From NCBI GenBank assembly GCA_013388755.1, contig JACAEQ010000016.1, positions 1 through 37,104 of the forward strand: 37,104 nt of DNA. The letters run 5' to 3'. A program made the position numbers and the translations under genes. The stretch comes from Chloroflexota bacterium (lineage in GTDB: Bacteria > Chloroflexota > Chloroflexia > Chloroflexales > Roseiflexaceae). How positions within the stretch are numbered: the stretch's first letter is position 1; each line of letters starts with the position of its first letter. Below are positions 8,517 to 37,104 of this stretch, in pieces. The notes below the pieces were generated by a model. That model worked only from the letters and a program-made list of their open reading frames with translations, did not search any database and was not told where the DNA came from.

Positions 8517-8921
8517 TCAGGCGGCGCCGATGATCCGCTCGCGCGGCTGGATCAGCGACGCAATATGCCGGTTGAACGCCAGCAAGTCGAAAGGCTTTTC
8601 GATCATCGGCACGCCGGCGCCGGCCAGCATCTCGTACATACCGCGCGGTGGCAGGGCGCCACATACCAGGAGCACGGGAATGTGTGCCGTTTGCGTTGTG
8701 GTGCGCAGCTCATCAATCCACGCATAGCCGGCGACATTGGAGAATGACCAGTCGAAGATGACAAGATCCGGTTCCTGCTGCGCCAGGGCACGATGGGCAT
8801 CTTGCACATGGCGCGTCAGCGTGATCGTGTACCCCTCCATCGCAAGCATTGCCTCAAACAACCGGCCAAGGTCAGGGTCTTCTTCGACGACCAGGATGTG
8901 GCCGCGGCGCAAGCCTCCCAT
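8517..8921 (-). CDS. Stand-alone response-regulator receiver domain protein
   Basis: A 134-residue CheY-like protein with no output domain. The acidic pocket is E13, E14, D15 (LVVEEDPD), the phosphoacceptor is D57 (LVIFDWSF) and the conserved lysine is K109 (IEKPFD). The usual Thr/Ser switch residue is replaced by Cys-Gly in LLVCGAL, so signalling may differ from canonical CheY. The ATG at 8921-8919 has a strong GGAGG five bases upstream; a longer reading to 8990 has no such site. No histidine kinase is nearby, so its partner is unknown. Bases 8922-9138 upstream contain no gene. Confidence 0.87.
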   Translation of the reverse strand: MGGLRRGHILVVEEDPDLGRLFEAMLAMEGYTITLTRHVQDAHRALAQQEPDLVIFDWSFSNVAGYAWIDELRTTTQTAHIPVLLVCGALPPRGMYEMLAGAGVPMIEKPFDLLAFNRHIASLIQPRERIIGAA

Positions 8922-9020
8922 AGAACCCTCCCCGAAAGCATCTGCCGCATGCGAATATGCATCAACGATGGGCCCTGCGGTCAAAGGCATGGTGCTGGTT
9001 TGGGCGTCGGCCGCAGCGCA

Positions 9021-9046
9021 TTACCGCATATGCGGATGCACGGTAA
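9021..9046. promoter_or_regulatory. Nested palindrome between receiver gene and gdhA
   Basis: The perfect 12-base palindrome CCGCATATGCGG (9024-9035) overlaps the outer inverted repeat TTACCG (9021-9026) / CGGTAA (9041-9046). It lies ~100 bases upstream of the receiver gene start and ~90 bases past the end of gdhA. It could be an operator or an RNA hairpin; no binding protein can be named. Confidence 0.3.
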
Positions 9047-9138
9047 CATGCATACGACGGCCCTTGCGCGGCACGTACCGCATGCTACGCATGGAAAACG
9101 CTGCAAGCGGCGACGAGGATACGCGGCGCGGCGGCGTA

Positions 9139-10404
9139 TTACGGGTACAACCCGCGGATGATATTTGCGTCGGCCACCCGCCGGACGGCCAGCAGGTACG
9201 CCGCCAGGCGCAACGAGATGCGCCGTTGTTCCGCGAGGTCGCACACCTGGTTGAATGCATCAACCATGATATGTTCCAGGCGAGCATTAACATCGTGCTC
9301 GTTCCAGAAAAACGACTGCAACCCCTGAACCCATTCAAAATAGCTGACGGTCACGCCGCCGGCATTGGCCAGAATGTCGGGGACGACAGCAATGCCACGT
9401 TCATCGAGGATTGCATCCGCCAGCGGCGTCGTCGGGCCGTTGGCGCCTTCGACGATCAGCGCGGCACGGATCCGCGCCGCATTGCGATCGGTAATCTGAT
9501 TTTCCATCGCCGCCGGCACAAGAACATCGCACGGTGTTTCGAGCAAGGCGTCGCCGGCGATTCGCTCGACGCCAGGCGCGCTGTACCCTGCAAGCAGGCG
9601 GCGCGGATGATGGGCGGCATAACGCCGCATACCGGCGATGTCGAGCCCATCGCGGCAGACATAACCACCGCTGGCGTCACCCACACCAATCACGCGGCAC
9701 CCCAGTTCGGCAAGCAGCGCCGCTGCCACTCCCCCGACATTGCCAAATCCCTGGACGACCACGTTCAACTGGTCGAGACGTCGCCCGTGCCTGCGCGCCC
9801 ATTCGCGCACCATCAGGCTGACGCCGCGCCCGGTCGCCTCGTTGCGCCCCAGCGAACCTCCCACTTCCACCGGTTTACCAGTAACGACCGCATTAATCGT
9901 ATGCCCCTGTTGCATCGACAGGGTGTCCATGAACCATGCCATGATTTGCGCGTTGGTATTGACATCAGGCGCCGGGATGTCACGTTCGCTGCCGACCACA
10001 ATACCGACTTCGGTGGCGAAGCGGCGCGTCAGTCGTTCAAGCTCCTGCAGCGAGAGTTGCGCCGGATCACAGACGACGCCGCCCTTGGCGCCGCCATACG
10101 GAATATTGACCAGTGCGCATTTCCATGTCATCCACATCGCAAGTGCGCGCACTTCGTCAATATCAACACTCGGGTGGTAGCGCAGGCCACCCTTGGTCGG
10201 GCCGCGGCCAAGGTTATGTTGCACGCGATACCCGGTGAACATGCGCGTCGAGCCATCGTCCATCGCAACCGGAAAGCGCACCGTGAGCTCGCGTTGCGGC
10301 ACGCGCAACACCTCGCGTACATTGTCGGGCAGGGCGAGCAGCGCAGCAGCGCGATCGAACTGCTCCTGTGCGATGCGGAAGGGATTGTCACGATCAGACT
10401 TCAT
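9139..10404 (-). CDS. gdhA: Glutamate dehydrogenase (NAD(P)-dependent)
   Basis: A 421-residue cytoplasmic enzyme that interconverts glutamate with 2-oxoglutarate and ammonium, linking carbon and nitrogen metabolism. The substrate domain contains GPTKGGLRYHP and IPYGGAKGGV, the latter holding the catalytic lysine, followed by the conserved GSERDIPAPDVNT. The Rossmann domain has VVVQGFGNVGG for dinucleotide binding, and ANAGGVTVSYFEWVQ is the late conserved block. The length of ~420 residues fits the hexameric small-subunit class. The ATG at 10404 is preceded by AAGGAG six bases away. It lies 15 bases after the GNAT acetyltransferase gene and is probably cotranscribed with it. Cofactor preference is not clear by eye. 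Confidence 0.97.
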   Translation of the reverse strand: MKSDRDNPFRIAQEQFDRAAALLALPDNVREVLRVPQRELTVRFPVAMDDGSTRMFTGYRVQHNLGRGPTKGGLRYHPSVDIDEVRALAMWMTWKCALVNIPYGGAKGGVVCDPAQLSLQELERLTRRFATEVGIVVGSERDIPAPDVNTNAQIMAWFMDTLSMQQGHTINAVVTGKPVEVGGSLGRNEATGRGVSLMVREWARRHGRRLDQLNVVVQGFGNVGGVAAALLAELGCRVIGVGDASGGYVCRDGLDIAGMRRYAAHHPRRLLAGYSAPGVERIAGDALLETPCDVLVPAAMENQITDRNAARIRAALIVEGANGPTTPLADAILDERGIAVVPDILANAGGVTVSYFEWVQGLQSFFWNEHDVNARLEHIMVDAFNQVCDLAEQRRISLRLAAYLLAVRRVADANIIRGLYP

Positions 10405-10419
10405 TGTCTGCTCCTTAGG

Positions 10420-11067
10420 TCAGCGGAGATCCTTGCGCATATAGATCCAGCGTCGCTGGCGGAGCATCAGGCCTGCCAGCCATGATCGGCGCGTCGCATG
10501 ATCGACAAAACCTGCGTGCATATAGAGACGACGCGCTGCCTGGTTCGAGGCGCTGACGTAGAGCCCGAGAAAGCGTTTGCCGCGCTGGCGCGCTTCATGT
10601 TCAGCATGGGCGACCAGCGCGCGGGCAATGCCGTGCCGCCGGCAGGATGCCAGCACGGCGACGTCGGTAATATATCCTTCACCGCGTTCGATCGTATGAT
10701 CAAGCAGCGAGAGGGCAAAGATCGAGCGCATCGCGCCCCAGACACCAAGGACCTGATGAAACGCAAGCTCAGCAGCACCACTGGCATCGTTCCCCATTTC
10801 CCAGGTGCGCAATGAGATCGTCCCCACCACCAGGCCGCCCGATTCGGCGACGAACATGCCACGCAGTGCGCTCCGGCCCTGGCGGCGCCATGCTTCGGCC
10901 ATGGCCTCGATGCCGCGCGCCATGCCGCGCACGCCGAACGCGGCGCCGAATTTGTCGGCGAACGCCTCGCAGTGTAGCCGCAGGATCGGGTAGATATCAT
11001 CCATGCGCGCGGCACGGATCTGTACTGGCATGCTTGCGGGAATGGGATCGTGCGGCACCGGCAGCAT
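10420..11067 (-). CDS. GNAT-family N-acetyltransferase
   Basis: A ~215-residue acetyl-CoA-dependent acetyltransferase. The GNAT fold is seen from IRAARMDDIYPILRLH (first strand and helix) through GMFVAESGGLVVGTISL to the acetyl-CoA pyrophosphate-binding motif ITDVAVLASCRRHGIARAL and the closing LYVSASNQAARRLYMHAGF. The start is uncertain: the ATG at 11067 has a GGGA a few bases upstream, one at 11031 starts right at the domain, and one at 11097 has no ribosome site. It sits directly upstream of gdhA with a 15-base gap. The substrate is unknown; protein or amino-acid acetylation are both possible. Confidence 0.85.
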   Translation of the reverse strand: MLPVPHDPIPASMPVQIRAARMDDIYPILRLHCEAFADKFGAAFGVRGMARGIEAMAEAWRRQGRSALRGMFVAESGGLVVGTISLRTWEMGNDASGAAELAFHQVLGVWGAMRSIFALSLLDHTIERGEGYITDVAVLASCRRHGIARALVAHAEHEARQRGKRFLGLYVSASNQAARRLYMHAGFVDHATRRSWLAGLMLRQRRWIYMRKDLR

Positions 11068-11463: not shown

Positions 11464-11470
11464 GCATTTA

Positions 11471-11624
11471 GAGCCTATCCGAAAACCCATGGGCCTGCGG
11501 TCATTGCGAGGAGCGCCAGCGACCGCCTGCAGCGAGCGCAGCGTGGCTGACGCAATCGACCGGCGCGCGAGGAGATTGCTTCGCTTCGCTCGCAATGACA
11601 CCAGTCCGTTATTCGGATAGGCTC
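11471..11624 (+). repeat. Complete copy 2 of the MITE-like repeat
   Basis: A 154-base element bounded by GAGCCTATCCGAA (from 11471) and TTCGGATAGGCTC (to 11624), which are perfect inverted repeats. It is flanked on both sides by TTA (11468-11470 and 11625-11627), a possible 3-base target duplication. Inside is a second inverted pair, TCATTGCGAG near 11501 and CTCGCAATGA near 11590, so the single strand can fold into a long hairpin. It carries no gene. A consensus-like promoter starts 22 bases beyond its right edge. Confidence 0.85.
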
Positions 11625-11648
11625 TTAATGTCGTTGCGCGACCTTCCA

Positions 11649-28310: not shown

Positions 28311-30041
28311 ATGTCGGACAACGAGACGAACACGACGAATGGGAAACATGTCGCCCCTGGCGACAAGAAGCAGGGGATCAAGCTTGTTGCGCCCGCCCGC
28401 GCCGATGAGCGCGCCGGCGAGATCAGATTCGTCGACATGCCGCGCGAGAAAAGCCCGCGGCTCGATGTGCTCGTGCTGAACCCGCCCTCGCCCGACGGCG
28501 ACCTGTTCCTGCGCGATATTGCGCGTGTCGGTCGTCGCACCCGCGACGGCATCATCTGGCCGCAGACGGCGCTGGCCCAGATCGGTGCGGTCGTCAAGGA
28601 AGCCGGCTATAGCGTTGACGTGATCGACGCCATTGGCCTGGGGATGTCGTGGGAAGACTTCGAGCGCTATATGCTCAAGCATAAGCCACGCTACATGATC
28701 ATCCATGCCACCGCGCCGACGCTGACCAACGACATGCGCACCACCTTCGTCGGTAAGGCGGTTGGCACGATCAGTATGGCGATCGGCACGCATGTCACGC
28801 CGATGAGCCGTGAGACGCTCGAGTCGTATCCCTCGCTGGACATTGTCATCCGTGGCGAACCGGAAATGAGCATCCTTGACGTCATCCAGACGATCGATCG
28901 CCAGGTGGAGCTGGAGAAGGCCACCGATACGGTGCCGGTCGGCAACCCGGACCTGACGGCGCCGTGGCGCAAGTTACCGTTCCCGGATGCGTCGTACCTG
29001 ACGACCCGCGGCCGCTTTCTCGGCGTCTACCCGCAGGTGATCGCCCGCGCCCTGCGCGAAACCAAAGGCATCGCCTTTCGCAACGAGCACGGCGAGATCC
29101 AGATCAACCCCGACCGCCCGTTCATCGAGAATCTCGATAGCCTGCCGCTGCCGTTGCACGATAAACTGCCGTGGCAGAAATACAAGGTGCCGATTGTCGG
29201 CGGACCGTACACCTTTGTGCTAACGAGTCGCGGCTGCCCGGCCGGCTGCCGCTATTGCATCAAGCATGTGACCTACCAGGCCAGCGTGCGCCATCGCAGC
29301 CCGCAGCACGTGCTCGAAGAGATGTATATGCTGAAGGAACTCGGCATGCATCACATCCACTTCGAGGCGGATCTGTTCACCGTCAAGAAGGAGTTCGTTT
29401 ACGATCTGTGCAATACGATCATCAAAGACGGCATCAAGTTGCAGTGGTCGTGCAACAGTCGCGTTGACTTTGTTGACGAACAGGAACTGGCATTGATGAA
29501 ACAGGCCGGCTGCTTCATGATCGCCTGGGGCCTGGAGAGCGGCAGCGAAGCGGTGCTCAAGCGCGCCCGCAAGGGTACCACCGTCAAGCGCATCGAAGAG
29601 ACGATCGCCGCCAGCCGCAAGGTGGGCATCAAGAACTGGGGGTACTTCATCATCGGGCTGCCCGGTGAGACGGTGGAGACGATCCAGCAGACAATTGCGC
29701 TCTCAAAGCGCATTCCGGTCGATATCGCGCTCTTCCATATCGCCACGCCTTATCCCGGCACACCGTTCTATTATGAAGCGGTCGAGAACGGCTGGATCCA
29801 GATGGATCGCTGGGAAGACTATGACATGTACAACCACACGGTGCTGAACTATCCGCACCTGAGCTCGAAGGATCTGGAGTACTGGGCGAAGCGCGCCGCG
29901 CGTGAGTGGTCACTGCGCCCTGCGCCGATTATGACCTTCCTCAAGGCGGCCGCCAACCGCGAGACGCTCGGCCATCTGTGGAAGATCGGCACGAACCATA
30001 TTCGCTGGATGAGCGGCAGCCTGACGGGCAGTGGTGCGTAG
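28311..30041 (+). CDS. B12-binding-domain radical SAM protein
   Basis: A 576-residue cytoplasmic enzyme. Residues ~50-190 form a cobalamin-binding-type Rossmann domain (LDVLVLNPPSPDGDLFL, then IWPQTALAQIGAVVKEAGY), but without the DxHxxG motif of base-off B12 binders. The radical-SAM core spans ~295-500, with the 4Fe-4S ligands C309, C313 and C316 in SRGCPAGCRYC, the later HFEADLFTV and AWGLESGSEAVLKRARKG (SAM-binding and GGE-like region), and GLPGETVETIQQT. The class includes methyltransferases and cyclases acting on lipids, tetrapyrroles or sugars; BchE is a relative, but the N-terminus does not match it. GGAGGA lies upstream of the ATG. A strong hairpin follows at 30075-30107. Confidence 0.88.
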   Translation: MSDNETNTTNGKHVAPGDKKQGIKLVAPARADERAGEIRFVDMPREKSPRLDVLVLNPPSPDGDLFLRDIARVGRRTRDGIIWPQTALAQIGAVVKEAGYSVDVIDAIGLGMSWEDFERYMLKHKPRYMIIHATAPTLTNDMRTTFVGKAVGTISMAIGTHVTPMSRETLESYPSLDIVIRGEPEMSILDVIQTIDRQVELEKATDTVPVGNPDLTAPWRKLPFPDASYLTTRGRFLGVYPQVIARALRETKGIAFRNEHGEIQINPDRPFIENLDSLPLPLHDKLPWQKYKVPIVGGPYTFVLTSRGCPAGCRYCIKHVTYQASVRHRSPQHVLEEMYMLKELGMHHIHFEADLFTVKKEFVYDLCNTIIKDGIKLQWSCNSRVDFVDEQELALMKQAGCFMIAWGLESGSEAVLKRARKGTTVKRIEETIAASRKVGIKNWGYFIIGLPGETVETIQQTIALSKRIPVDIALFHIATPYPGTPFYYEAVENGWIQMDRWEDYDMYNHTVLNYPHLSSKDLEYWAKRAAREWSLRPAPIMTFLKAAANRETLGHLWKIGTNHIRWMSGSLTGSGA

Positions 30042-31564: not shown

Positions 31565-33049
31565 ATGGTTGCTGATAGCGACGCACCGTCGCACAACTCG
31601 GAGAGACGCAGCCTCGGCCGCATCGTTTTGCGGAACACGCTTGCCACCACCTTGAGCGGTGGCGTGCTCAAGGTCCTGAACTTCCTCTATACCGTCTATA
31701 CCTTACGTGTGCTTGGTGAGGCGGGTTTCGGCCAATACAGCGCGGTACTGGCGTTTGTCGGGCTGTTTGGCGTGTTCTTCGAGATTGGCCTGGCGCAGTA
31801 TGTGCAGCGCACCATCGCGCAGGATCCGGCACGTACCCAGGCACTCTTCTGGAACCTGGTGGTGCTGCGGCTGATCCTTGCCATAGCCGGGATGGCGGCA
31901 ATCACGGGGCTCTCGCTCGTGCTGCGCCATGAACCGGCGATGACGTTCGGCGTCGCGCTGTTCACCGGCACCTTCGTGCTGGCAGCGTTCCTGATGCCCT
32001 TGATAACGGTGCTGACGGCGAACGAACGTCTCGATCTCGTGTCGGTCATGGAGGTTGGCGCCCAACTCGTCACAATTGTCACCGGTGTGCTGCTGCTCCA
32101 CTCCGGCGCCGGATTTCTGGGCTTACTCTATGTTGGCTTCATCACCATGCCGCTGCAGATTGTGATGGCCGTCTGGGCCATTCGACGCTATGGCTATGGG
32201 CCACTGCACTTTCGGATCGAACCCGCGAGCTGGCGACCATTCATTCGCGCCAGCCTTCCATTCGGAGTCACGTCGCTGGCGCTGACCTTCAACTTCAATG
32301 CCGATACCGTCATTCTCAATCTGTTTCATAGCAACGCCGAGATCGGCTGGTATAACGCCGCATATGGCCTGGTATTCTCGCTGGTCTCAGTTGCCGGCGG
32401 GTTCCTGACGGCCATCACTCCCTCGTTCTCACGTGAGCATGTGAGCGATCCGGAACGAGTGCGTAGCTGGACACGTGCCAGCGTCCGCTGGATGATGCTG
32501 CTCGCATTGCCGGCTGCAATGGGGGTCTCACTCCTGGCGTCGCAAGCCATCCAGTTGCTCTATGGCCAGGCGTTCGCGCCGTCCGGCCCGGTACTGGCAG
32601 TGATCGGCTGGGATATACCGTTGTTGCTGTTCTGCGCATTCTGCGGCAATGTGACCGCTGCAGTGGGTCTCGAACATCCTGCCGCTCGCATCTACCTGTT
32701 CAGCGCCGCGCTCAACGTCGTACTCAATCTGCTGCTGATCCCGATGTACGGCAAAATGGCCGCCGCGTCCATAACGATCGTGACCGATGTGGTGATGGCC
32801 GGGCAGTTTTTCTTCCTGCTGGCAAATCATATGCAACTGGGGCAGATCCGTGGCTACTTATTGCGCGTGGCCGGCGCCACCGGGTTCATGGGCGGCGCGG
32901 TCTGGCTGGCCGTATCGTTGCCGCTCGCAGTGCCAATCGCGATTGGCGTTGTGGTGTATGGTGTGCTTGCGCTCGCCATGCGCCTCGTCGAACCGGCACA
33001 ACTGGCAGAGATTGCACTGAAAGTGCGCCGGCGAATGGGACCGGCGTGA
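31565..33049 (+). CDS. Wzx-type oligosaccharide flippase
   Basis: A 494-residue polysaccharide-transport protein of the MOP/Wzx superfamily that moves lipid-linked glycan repeat units across the membrane. About 12-14 helices run from GRIVLRNTLATTLSGGVLKV (a typical Wzx start) to YGVLALAMRLVEPAQ. LGEAGFGQYSAVLAFVGLFG and NFNADTVILNLFHSNAEIGWYNAAYGLV match the two most conserved Wzx segments. The ATG at 31565 has only a distant GAGG, so the start is less certain. It follows the membrane acetyltransferase gene by 36 bases. No Wzy polymerase is seen nearby; a polymerase could lie outside the window. Confidence 0.92.
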   Translation: MVADSDAPSHNSERRSLGRIVLRNTLATTLSGGVLKVLNFLYTVYTLRVLGEAGFGQYSAVLAFVGLFGVFFEIGLAQYVQRTIAQDPARTQALFWNLVVLRLILAIAGMAAITGLSLVLRHEPAMTFGVALFTGTFVLAAFLMPLITVLTANERLDLVSVMEVGAQLVTIVTGVLLLHSGAGFLGLLYVGFITMPLQIVMAVWAIRRYGYGPLHFRIEPASWRPFIRASLPFGVTSLALTFNFNADTVILNLFHSNAEIGWYNAAYGLVFSLVSVAGGFLTAITPSFSREHVSDPERVRSWTRASVRWMMLLALPAAMGVSLLASQAIQLLYGQAFAPSGPVLAVIGWDIPLLLFCAFCGNVTAAVGLEHPAARIYLFSAALNVVLNLLLIPMYGKMAAASITIVTDVVMAGQFFFLLANHMQLGQIRGYLLRVAGATGFMGGAVWLAVSLPLAVPIAIGVVVYGVLALAMRLVEPAQLAEIALKVRRRMGPA

Positions 33050-33157: not shown

Positions 33158-33287
33158 CCTGGCTCATCTGGGCATGGTCGACGTTGTGCTGATCTCCGAA
33201 CGGGTTGCCCGGGTTTGCATTCATACGCATCTTCCGAGAAGGTTGATCACCGCGCATCAGTACTCCCGTTCAACCCTCCTGGGGTTA

Positions 33288-33445
33288 GTACCTATCCGAA
33301 AACCCATGGGCATGCGGTCAGTGCGAGGAGCGCCAGCGACCGCCTGCAGCGAGCGCAGCGTGGCTGACGCAATCGAGCGGCGCGAGCGGAGAGTGCTTCG
33401 CGCGCGCTCGCCATGACAGTGACCATCTGGTGTTCGGATAGGCTC
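33288..33445 (+). repeat. Complete copy 3 of the MITE-like repeat
   Basis: A 158-base element whose ends CCTATCCGAA (33291-33300) and TTCGGATAGG (33433-33442) are inverted repeats. TTA flanks both sides (33285-33287 and 33446-33448), as in copy 2. The interior matches copies 1 and 2 (GCGAGGAGCGCCAGCGACC and the following bases) and can fold on itself. It ends 24 bases before the ribosome site of the next gene. Confidence 0.85.
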
Positions 33446-33479
33446 TTAGGCCGGGTTTGAGCGAAAATGAGGAATTCTT

Positions 33480-35357
33480 GTGATGGGGCATCTGCATGGA
33501 TCGGATCAAGGGATTCCTGCGTCACCGGGCATGGATACACGACCTGGACGGTTTGCCGTGTTCGGGTGGTCACGTGCGACGTTGCCGGTAGCTCTCGCTG
33601 CTCTTGCACATGAAGCGAATATCACGCCACGGTTCTGGAATTATGGTGATGCCGGTACACTGTTTGTTCTCAGCAATCACGCCGACATAGCTCAGAACAA
33701 TGATGGGCTGGCGATCGTCATCGGCTCGGCATTCACGCTCGAGGGAGCGCCACTGACGGCGCGCATGATGCTTGATAACGGTATTGCTACGCCCGAGGCC
33801 ATTCGACACGACGCTGTGCGAGGCAATGCCATTGTCATCTGTCTGAGTCTGCGCGGTCCAGTATTCTCTGTCTATCAGAGCGTTGTCACCACTTCCCAGA
33901 TCTTTTACAAACACAGCCAGGAGTTGCTGGTTTGCTCTGATGCTATCCGCTACACAATTGCGCTGCATGGGCGTCCGGAGTTGAATGCAGATGCAATTCC
34001 GCACCATTTGCTGTTCCGTAACGTGACCGGCTCGATGACGTATGTTCGCGACATACATAAGTTGCGTCCGGGGTTTCGAGGAGCATTTCGTGATGGCACC
34101 TGGTTGGTGACGCAGGTGGAACGTCTCGACGATCTGGCAGTCGGACGGCGACTCTACAAGGGGGCTGCACAGGAGCTTGCCGAGATCGATGCACATGCTG
34201 CGTCAATCATTGGTCGTTATGCTCGCCGGGTGAGAGAAGACAATCAGCAGTTCCATGTTTTGCTCTCCGGCGGGGTTGACTCATCACTGTTGACCGCGTG
34301 GCTTCAGACTGGTCTTGCTCCTGACGACCGTATCGCTTCTCTGACCTACCTTATGGACGCGGGGAGTGTGGCCGGTGATGCCGAGTATGCCCGGCACGCG
34401 ATTGACATACTTGGGACGCGCCCCGATTTCGTGCGTATCTCGATGGAGGAATATCCACGCCTGCTTATCGAGTGTATCGAATTGCTGGCACAACCTATCG
34501 ACCATGAGCAGGATCCGTGCTATCTGGCAATGGCAAAGCACCTGTCCCGCCTGCCGGCATCCTGCGTGTTTTCGGGCTCGTCCATTGACACGCTGCTCGG
34601 TCATTCCCATGATAGGCGTTACCGTCAGATCGATCGCTATCGGGCATTCCCTGCCGCCTCGGTGATATTCGGTGCCCTCGGACGCGTGTTGAAACCGGTA
34701 TTGCCAAACAAAGCCTACGGCATGCGTGAGCTTTCAGGATACCTGAGCCACATTGACGATCCGCTGTCGGTATATCATCCGTTTCAAACATGCTGTATGT
34801 ACTCGCCGCCTGATGCCGTGGTTGCGATGTTCGGCCACGAGACGCTGCGACACGCCATGCACACACGAGTTGTTCAGATCGATGATTATCTTGCCAGTAC
34901 ATTGCTGAGTGAGCGTATTCATGGTATTGAGTTTCTGCTCGATCTCCATGATGAAGAAGCCAACCTCGTTCAGATTTACCGAATGTTCGGCCTGGATTTC
35001 GTCTTACCCTTCCTGGACAGCGAATTCGTTGGATTGACGCTCAGTATTGATGCCCGCATTCGCTATGTGAAAGATGGGCAGTACAAATGGCTGCCGAAGC
35101 AGTTGCTCAGACAACGTGTATCGTCCGGTACAGTTGACTGGCCGAAACGTGACGGCGGCTTTCCTGCTGAGCTCTTTGCCTGGATGAAATCTGGTGTGTT
35201 GCGTGAGCTGACGGCTGATATCGCACGGCCCGCATACATGACAACGACGCAGTTTCAGCATCAGCTGGATAATCCTGACTGGTTGACGTGGAACATGCTT
35301 ACACTTGATCTTTTTGAGAAACGTGTCCTTCGCGCAAGTCGGGTGCTGGCGCCATGA
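33480..35357 (+). CDS. Asparagine-synthetase-like protein lacking the glutaminase cysteine
   Basis: A 625-residue protein. Residues ~20-215 resemble the class II glutaminase (Ntn) domain by layout but do not start with Cys, and I see no replacement nucleophile. Residues ~235-600 form the ATP-pyrophosphatase (AsnB) domain, with the P-loop SGGVDSS at 263-269, CVFSGSSIDTLLGH, and DFVLPFLDSEFV near the end. Members without the cysteine use ammonia or an internal amine, as in beta-lactam synthetase and lasso-peptide cyclases. Starts GTG 33480 and ATG 33483 share one GAGGA. The third bases look A/T-richer than in neighbouring genes, hinting at transfer. It is paired with a second such gene downstream. 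It probably forms an amide on the glycan or a peptide; the substrate is unknown. Confidence 0.85.
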   Translation: MMGHLHGSDQGIPASPGMDTRPGRFAVFGWSRATLPVALAALAHEANITPRFWNYGDAGTLFVLSNHADIAQNNDGLAIVIGSAFTLEGAPLTARMMLDNGIATPEAIRHDAVRGNAIVICLSLRGPVFSVYQSVVTTSQIFYKHSQELLVCSDAIRYTIALHGRPELNADAIPHHLLFRNVTGSMTYVRDIHKLRPGFRGAFRDGTWLVTQVERLDDLAVGRRLYKGAAQELAEIDAHAASIIGRYARRVREDNQQFHVLLSGGVDSSLLTAWLQTGLAPDDRIASLTYLMDAGSVAGDAEYARHAIDILGTRPDFVRISMEEYPRLLIECIELLAQPIDHEQDPCYLAMAKHLSRLPASCVFSGSSIDTLLGHSHDRRYRQIDRYRAFPAASVIFGALGRVLKPVLPNKAYGMRELSGYLSHIDDPLSVYHPFQTCCMYSPPDAVVAMFGHETLRHAMHTRVVQIDDYLASTLLSERIHGIEFLLDLHDEEANLVQIYRMFGLDFVLPFLDSEFVGLTLSIDARIRYVKDGQYKWLPKQLLRQRVSSGTVDWPKRDGGFPAELFAWMKSGVLRELTADIARPAYMTTTQFQHQLDNPDWLTWNMLTLDLFEKRVLRASRVLAP

Positions 35358-35409
35358 ACCGTGAGCAAGCTATGCGCCAGTCTCCTGTCGCGATCGAGAT
35401 GGGTTACCA

Positions 35410-37104
35410 GTGAGTGGAGTCTTTGGCTATATCAGTGCCGCACTCGATGAATCAGTGCTTCGTATTGCCGGGAGCATGGGTGCGCGCATGCGCCACCTTG
35501 ACCATCAGATTGTTGATGTATCGGTGGTAGCGCGTGGGGTCGCCCTGGGGCGGCTTGGTATCGGTATCTTCAACCGCGCCTCTCAGCCGGTTGTGGACCC
35601 GAGCGGCTGTGTCTGCCTTGTGCTCTGTGGCGAGTTCTACCACCACGATGTGCAACGCCGGGCGCTGGAGCAGGATGGGTCGCTTTCTGCCGGCGCCGAT
35701 GACTCCCGGTTTGCCCTGGCCTGCTATCTGCGCGACGGTATTGCTGGATTAACCGCACTGGAAGGCGCTTTCACCATTGCCGTCTGGGATGCGCGGGTCG
35801 GGGAACTGGCGATAGTCAATGACCGCTTCGGCCTTTACCCGCATTACTACGCCCATCATGGCGGCGCGCTGTCGTTTGCTCCCGAGATCAAGGGCATCCT
35901 TGCCGCTCCCGAAGTGCCGCGCCGGCTCGACATGATCGCTGTGACCCAGTACCTGCGTTTCCAGCAATTGCTTGGTGAACGCACCTGGTTCGAAGATGTT
36001 CACCTCCTCCCGCCGGCGTCTATCCTGCGTTTCCATCCCGCCAGCAATCATCTTGCGATCGATCGCTACTGGGATTGGGATCGCATTCGCCAGCAATCGG
36101 CAATCGGTTTCAACGATGCCGTTGAAGAACTTGTGCGCCTGTTCCAGCGCGCAATCGATGCGATGACCGCTACGCCTCATCGGGTCGGGGTGTATTTGAG
36201 CGGTGGTCTCGATGGACGTACCATTCTGGGCTTCATCCCTCCGCAGAGACCGGTGATGACGATAACGTATGGTGCGGCAGGGTGTCGCGATGTGGTATAT
36301 GCCAGAGAAATAGCCCGGCGAGCAGGGCGCCCGCACCGGTGGTTCCCGTTCGAGGACGGGCACTGGATCGTGGAACATGCGCCGTTGCATCTGGCGCTTA
36401 CCGAAGGCATGCATAGCTGGATGCATGCCCATGGCATCAGTACCCTGGCTGCTGCACGCGAGTTGATCGATGTCAATCTCTCCGGGTGGGACGGCGGCAC
36501 TATCTTTGGCGGGTATCTGGCGAGTTACACAGATGATGTTCATCTGCTGCGCGCGTCGGGTGAACGTGATCGCGCAAGTCGCCTGTTCCAGGCATTCTGT
36601 CACGATTATGCCTGGCCCGGCCTGACGGATGATGAGTATGCCATGCTCCTCGATCGAGCGACTGCCCCCTATGCCGGCGCAGCGAGGCAGTCGTTCGATA
36701 ATGAGTTTGCGCGCAGCGCGCACTATCCGCCCGACCGGCGAATTGACTACTTCTATTTGCTCCAGCATGTGCGCCGTTCATCCCAGAACCAGATTGTCTT
36801 TGCGCGCTCATCGATTGAAGTGCGCTGCCCGTTCTTTGACTATAGTGTTATTGAGTTTGTCTATGCACTCCCGGAGCATATACGCCGAACACCGGCGCTG
36901 TATCGCAGCCTGCTGACGCAACGGGCGCCGCATCTGGCGCTGGTGCCCTATGATAAGGACGACCTGCTCCCGCATAGTAACCGGTTGATTCGCGGCGCCC
37001 ATGCCCTGACACACAAGGTGAAGCGCCGCATTCACCGCCATATCGCCCCGATCTTCCCGGATCGCCCGCGCCTGTATGCCGACTATGAGCACTACCTGCG
37101 TACC
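35410..37104 (+). CDS. Second asparagine-synthetase-like protein (runs off the window)
   Basis: The gene is open from the GTG at 35410 to the window edge, giving 565 codons with no stop. The N-terminus reads SGVFGYIS after the start, where glutamine-dependent asparagine synthetases have CGI(A/F)G, so the Cys nucleophile is replaced by Ser. The glutaminase-like domain is otherwise well kept (ALEGAFTIAVWDARVGEL, NDRFGLYPHYYA, FAPEIKGILAAPE, LLPPASILRF). The ATP-pyrophosphatase P-loop reads SGGLDGRT (264-271), with Gly for the usual Ser after the aspartate. EVRCPFFDYSVIEFVYALPE is the conserved C-terminal block. It lies 52 bases after the first such gene and is probably in the same operon. It may act as an amide-forming enzyme or a partner subunit. 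Confidence 0.87.
   Translation, partial: MSGVFGYISAALDESVLRIAGSMGARMRHLDHQIVDVSVVARGVALGRLGIGIFNRASQPVVDPSGCVCLVLCGEFYHHDVQRRALEQDGSLSAGADDSRFALACYLRDGIAGLTALEGAFTIAVWDARVGELAIVNDRFGLYPHYYAHHGGALSFAPEIKGILAAPEVPRRLDMIAVTQYLRFQQLLGERTWFEDVHLLPPASILRFHPASNHLAIDRYWDWDRIRQQSAIGFNDAVEELVRLFQRAIDAMTATPHRVGVYLSGGLDGRTILGFIPPQRPVMTITYGAAGCRDVVYAREIARRAGRPHRWFPFEDGHWIVEHAPLHLALTEGMHSWMHAHGISTLAAARELIDVNLSGWDGGTIFGGYLASYTDDVHLLRASGERDRASRLFQAFCHDYAWPGLTDDEYAMLLDRATAPYAGAARQSFDNEFARSAHYPPDRRIDYFYLLQHVRRSSQNQIVFARSSIEVRCPFFDYSVIEFVYALPEHIRRTPALYRSLLTQRAPHLALVPYDKDDLLPHSNRLIRGAHALTHKVKRRIHRHIAPIFPDRPRLYADYEHYLRT

Follow-up and report, generated by a model that had tools for sequence, protein, structure and literature searches.

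A flippase-linked family of AsnB-like proteins without the cysteine nucleophile in Chloroflexota, possibly glutamine-independent amide ligases

The window analysed here, 37,104 nucleotides of DNA that make up one entire contig (G000:C130; JACAEQ010000016.1) of a Chloroflexota bacterium of the Roseiflexaceae, ends with two side-by-side genes on the + strand that encode relatives of the asparagine synthetase AsnB and are separated by 53 bp. An earlier note on this DNA had described both proteins as lacking the Cys nucleophile needed to use glutamine, and this is borne out, since the product of gene 1 (P0001; 33480–35357, + strand) contains no Cys within residues 1–120 and that of gene 2 (P0002; 35410–37104, + strand) carries Ser2 instead. 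Judging from these sequences, neither protein is likely to use glutamine. On their 5' side lies a gene for a MOP/Wzx-type flippase (31565–33049, + strand; Polysacc_synt, Pfam PF01943, 2.1e-29). Gene 2, which belongs to a conserved Cys-less family, is truncated by the contig end after 565 visible residues; with the 95-residue C-terminal piece of an orthologue as query, its C-terminus was found at the end of contig C6 of the same genome, leaving a gap of about 17 codons. There, the end of gene 2 overlaps a gene for a GT4 glycosyltransferase, behind which come genes for another flippase, a DegT aminotransferase, a FemAB/GNAT protein and further glycosyltransferases; together the genes after gene 2 constitute an exopolysaccharide-type cluster. 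The earlier note had placed the pair in a flippase and glycan context, which is real and is conserved for gene 2 in 9/9 close members of its family. The rightward extension that it had proposed turned up an aminotransferase, the DegT gene, but among the next genes neither a precursor peptide nor lasso-type partner genes.

Gene 2 matches the Pfam domains Asn_synthase (4e-21) and GATase_7 (1.2e-16) and shares the two-domain architecture of AsnB (TIGR01536; PDB 1ct9), although the TIGR01536 equivalog cut-off of 267.1 bits is missed by both gene 2 (155.7 bits) and gene 1 (49.7 bits). The pyrophosphate loop (PP-loop) motif SGG-x-D of AsnB is retained in both proteins, reading SGGVDSS in gene 1 (34266–34286, + strand) and SGGLDGRT in gene 2 (36199–36222, + strand), exactly as the earlier note had given them. 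Glu348 of AsnB is the residue thought to handle ammonia. Unlike AsnB, both proteins have a different residue at this position in addition to the missing Cys, and in gene 2 Asp351 is changed as well. In an alignment of gene 2 with its closest homologues (eight rows), Ser2 of the N-terminal MSGVFGY (35410–35430, + strand), which replaces the glutaminase Cys, and the motif SGGLDGR are invariant, and a sequencing slip can therefore be discounted. Alignment with 1ct9 places SGWDGGT of gene 2 (36481–36501, + strand) against SGEGSDE of AsnB, which corresponds to Glu348 to Trp and Asp351 to Gly replacements that are invariant in close homologues. Furthermore, Ser239 of AsnB is replaced by Gly in the close clade, and with Asp351 the gene-2 clade has lost the second Mg-binding Asp of AsnB. 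Lys516 of gene 2 (36955–36957, + strand), the probable counterpart of the catalytic Lys449 of AsnB, is invariant in the eight rows, while the corresponding residue is Arg in the homologue at locus L097, His in that at L098, and Lys, Arg, His, Asp or Val across the wider clade. Of the AsnB set formed by PP-loop, Asp351 and Lys449, gene 1 retains 3/3 whereas gene 2 keeps the PP-loop Asp and the Lys with Gly in place of Asp351. The glutamine side is altered in all members: the Cys nucleophile is missing in 14/14 members of the clade, where position 2 is Ser or Pro, and the Gln-pocket motif NGE is replaced by CGE, AGE, VGE, EGE or DGE. The close members strictly keep the PP-loop SGG-x-D, a C-terminal Lys-Asp and Trp-Asp-Gly-Gly. 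Taken at face value, these replacements indicate a remodelled active site in gene 2.

The closest homologues of gene 2 are 51–58% identical and occur in three Chloroploca genomes (with two copies in Khr17), in Viridilinea, in Chloroflexales MAG.66, in Anaerolineales UBA5069 and in G118. The protein at L098 (45% identical) is sister to these, and with four further, more distant members the clade comprises 14 proteins that are separated in the tree from Cys-bearing AsnB-like proteins with support of 100/100. Directly 5' of the gene-2 homologue, an orthologue of the window's flippase is present in 9/9 closest members, a count that disregards the intervening gene 1 in the window. These flippase orthologues are 44–58% identical, and at some loci the flippase and gene-2 homologue share a 4-base start/stop overlap. 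Close relatives of the GT4 glycosyltransferase on C6 are found in 7/9 of the closest members. The conserved unit is gene 2 together with the flippase. Other partners vary, and type I polyketide synthase genes follow the gene-2 homologue at L035, L050 and L097 and at the sister locus L098. The polyketide synthase genes (KS-AT-DH-KR-ACP) adjoin or lie near the gene-2 homologue at these loci, and 3/4 of them also have a thioesterase gene; possibly these loci encode a pathway for a glycosylated polyketide that includes a dedicated flippase.

The second variable partner is a SpeD-like pyruvoyl decarboxylase. A gene matching AdoMet_dc follows the gene-2 homologue at L036, L037, L038 and L052 of Chloroploca and Viridilinea, and in MAG.66 (L047) a broken SpeD-like copy lies behind it at the contig end. 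At L036 (Ca. Chloroploca) the gene-2 orthologue spans 9025–10968 and the SpeD gene 8616–9041. The broken copy of MAG.66 (L047 end; G439:C611) stops inside the conserved core and is either an assembly error or a pseudogene; MAG.66 also has a separate SpeD adjoining a SpeE-like gene. The linked type, represented by P0005, occurs in 5/82 Chloroflexales genomes, all of which (5/5) contain the gene-2 family, and is the sole AdoMet_dc protein in G052, G056, G057 and Viridilinea. In the same genomes no SpeE was found above a cut-off that is strict, with only 4/14 control genomes passing it, and the best matches there are weak (E 1e-5 to 1e-8). P0005 keeps the pyruvoyl-forming Ser and the catalytic His and Cys (ESH, HT and FSC aligned) but scores 56.7 and 59.2 bits against the NCBIfam AdoMet decarboxylase cut-off of 75.65 bits (TIGR03330). 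Diverged AdoMetDC/SpeD homologues that occur without SpeE include enzymes with demonstrated Arg or Orn decarboxylase activity (PMC10407285). Like these anomalous homologues (SpeDA/SpeDC), P0005 retains Ser, His and Cys in a genome without SpeE above the cut-off; unlike them, its gene stands behind an AsnB-like gene within an exopolysaccharide cluster and in no polyamine cluster. The five SpeD-bearing loci form a single clade in the tree (support 86/83). SpeD as a universal partner of gene 2 was dropped, as the window genome and the polyketide-type loci have none beside gene 2. The sole AdoMet_dc gene of the window genome (L043:4641–5126; G000 contig C55) is diverged, has no NCBIfam match and lies away from the gene-2 operon. 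An 823-residue membrane protein of Chloroploca (L036:14007–16478) was considered as SpeE-like and dropped, having no match in Pfam or NCBIfam.

Gene 1 differs from gene 2 in both distribution and sequence. It encodes 625 residues from a GTG start preceded by a Shine-Dalgarno-like GAGGA, matches Asn_synthase (1.8e-20) but not the glutamine amidotransferase domain GATase_7 in the Pfam search, and reads RFAVFG where Cys-bearing relatives have MCGIFG and gene 2 has MSGVFG. This lineage-specific protein thus combines an eroded N-terminal domain with intact synthetase motifs: in SGSSID (34572–34589, + strand) Ser occupies the Glu348 position and Asp is retained at the Asp351 position, and Lys556 (35145–35147, + strand) stands at the position of the catalytic Lys449. 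With its nucleotide site intact, the protein is possibly an active enzyme. No orthologue was found among 60 relatives, 400 Chloroflexota genomes and 158 genomes of the class (top match 24% identity); a scan of genome contigs with gene 1 as query found nothing, plasmids gave no match, and gene 1 is absent at every other gene-2 family locus examined. The earlier note had treated the two genes as a unit and had made conservation of the pair in related genomes its own test of that proposal; the pair is not conserved, with 0 other gene-2 loci carrying gene 1. The GC content of gene 1 is 0.52–0.57 against about 0.58–0.65 in its surroundings, its GC content at third codon positions is the lowest among eight genes tested, and in the tree it forms a long branch without placement. 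In the 430-bp gap 5' of gene 1, between it and the flippase, sits a high-copy repeat resembling a miniature inverted-repeat transposable element (33279–33454, no strand assigned), about 170 bp long with terminal inverted repeats CCTATCCGAA...TTCGGATAGG and present in at least 40 genome copies of 89–97% identity (out of 336 first-look candidates). Since orthologues are lacking, GC content is lower, a high-copy repeat lies ahead and the tree branch is unplaced, gene 1 looks like a recent, lineage-specific local insertion.

Several further features of the genome and its relatives deserve mention. The repeat found ahead of gene 1 also occurs at positions 11468–11627 and, as a partial copy at the left contig end, at 1–126 of the window. 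The genes 5' of the pair encode, besides the flippase, an acyltransferase, a B12-binding radical SAM protein, a Tat-signal protein, a second acyltransferase and a GT2 glycosyltransferase; the radical SAM protein (HpnJ/BchE-like; 28311–30041) occupies the place of the 823-residue membrane protein in Chloroploca. A separate Cys-less AsnB-like group of 560–580 residues with the motifs NGEGGDPVFGG and SGGIDSS (L013, L014) is present in the window's own family and order and is close to neither gene 1 nor gene 2.

One of the nearest known systems is WbpS, an AsnB-like protein encoded downstream of wzx that amidates a uronic acid (PMC7468200). As with WbpS, WbqG and PGN_1234 (eps_aminotran_1, TIGR03108), the AsnB-like gene stands beside a wzx-type gene in a glycan cluster in 9/9 close gene-2 members; unlike those proteins, which are described as amidotransferases making primary uronamides, gene 2 has Ser for Cys and SGWDGGT for the Glu/Asp loop, and the TIGR03108 cut-off of 816.9 bits is missed by gene 1 (37.9) and gene 2 (130.7) alike. 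The top solved-structure match of gene 2 is the AsnB-like hydroxyamidotransferase PDB 7ylz (2.2e-19; 5e-28 with a profile), from which gene 2 is distant, with SGWDGGT in place of SGEAADE. Outside Chloroflexota, the comparison covered plasmid records and pattern scans. There, a protein encoded on a Haloferax plasmid and annotated as 'asparagine synthase-related protein' (WP_050460374.1) has the Cys-less start MTGFVG and the PP-loop SGGLDSR, is 26% identical to the Chloroflexota relative at L100 used as query, and, similar to the gene-2 context, is encoded near genes of polysaccharide flippase type, GT4 and DegT. The gene-2 clade is therefore one variant within a broader, uncharacterised set of Cys-less AsnB-like proteins of glycan loci.

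On this basis we tentatively favour, at a probability of roughly 0.4, that gene 2 encodes an ATP-dependent, glutamine-independent amide ligase related to the WbpS type that links an amine with the carboxylate of a glycan or an acyl compound. An amine not derived from glutamine is favoured because the Gln site is lost, because WbpS provides a precedent beside wzx and because of the SpeD link. In the mechanism that we infer, from catalysis and substrate to amine and order of steps, the gene-2 protein, encoded in the same operon as the Wzx-type flippase, would adenylate in the cytoplasm the carboxylate of a glycan or acyl intermediate, contributed by a uronic acid or a polyketide acid, and an amine other than glutamine-derived ammonia would attack the activated carboxylate prior to flipping or at about that step. 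For the Chloroploca/Viridilinea clade, this amine may be a product of the SpeD-like pyruvoyl decarboxylase whose gene immediately follows gene 2, and gene 1, as a separate and recent AsnB-like synthetase, may contribute a second local modification. The more specific proposal that the ligase joins a polyamine-type amine, made by this dedicated decarboxylase, to a lipid-linked glycan or polyketide carboxylate before flipping is doubtful. Several observations have to be held against the amide ligase as a whole. The Asp351 to Gly and Ser239 to Gly replacements and the varying Lys449 counterpart mean that gene 2 may form no acyl-adenylate, and the AlphaFold model from the eight-row alignment (mean predicted local distance difference test score 49, predicted template modelling score 0.37) is too poor for inspecting the site. 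The SpeD linkage may have arisen only once, as it is confined to one clade; neither the window genome's gene-2 operon nor the polyketide-linked loci contain SpeD; and the strict SpeE cut-off tempers the negative result for that gene. The amide-forming role advanced in the earlier note has an experimental precedent in WbpS (PMC7468200). The undescribed chemistry that the note had suspected is possible, but the gene-2 family may turn out to be non-catalytic.

This latter view, in which the family would be an AsnB-fold pseudoenzyme that binds nucleotide or sugar as a partner of the flippase or a glycosyltransferase, is unlikely but has to be taken seriously, given that the residue corresponding to Lys449 differs within the wider clade. 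The Asp351, Glu348 and Ser239 replacements in the close clade, the lost Gln pocket and the strict linkage to the flippase would all fit such a protein, whereas the strict conservation of SGG-x-D, Lys-Asp and Trp-Asp-Gly-Gly among close members suggests remodelling rather than decay. It is also rather improbable that gene 2 carries out an ordinary WbpS-like uronate amidation, fed by free ammonia or a separate glutaminase and yielding a plain uronamide. WbpS-type enzymes beside wzx do yield uronamides (PMC7468200), and ammonia can replace glutamine for an AS-like enzyme (PMC13060819), but no glutaminase gene was seen beside gene 2, its TIGR03108 score falls far from the cut-off, Trp replaces Glu348, and linkage to SpeD or polyketide synthases would be unexpected for such a pathway.

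A heteromeric enzyme formed by genes 1 and 2, as the earlier note had envisaged, is very unlikely: adjacency on one strand with a short gap and motifs that are intact in one protein and altered in the other are all that was found in its favour, whereas gene 1 is missing from all other gene-2 loci and from the 400 genomes of the phylum, and gene 2 therefore works without it at those loci. Cys-less AsnB-like proteins also occur among lasso-peptide and beta-lactam-synthetase cyclases, and gene 2 weakly matches the lasso cyclase family NF033535. Its score of 106.6 bits is, however, far under the cut-off of 525, gene 1 has no reported match, and no precursor, protease or RRE gene lies within the adjoining 20 kb. 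The Tyr of the beta-lactam synthetase dyad, which we take to align with AsnB Glu348, is absent, the position being Trp in gene 2 and Ser in gene 1, and chains of beta-lactam or carbapenam synthetase are missing among the PDB matches. The Tyr-Glu catalytic dyad of beta-lactam/carbapenam synthetase is given here after a work cited in PMC13060819 (its reference 68). On cut-offs, neighbouring genes and motif, a cyclase identity was rejected as extremely improbable.

If the polyamine-type proposal were true, bacterial surface polymers would be capped with amines by a chemistry to which no described enzyme could be matched; nor was a description of a Cys-less AsnB family of exopolysaccharide loci found in the literature searched. 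AsnB-like genes without the Cys are mostly annotated no further than 'asparagine synthase-related'. The gene-2 clade is tied to one constant partner, the flippase, and to two variable ones, either the SpeD-like enzyme or polyketide synthases of type I, and for a family without assigned function these associations suggest in concrete terms which substrate and which amine it may use.

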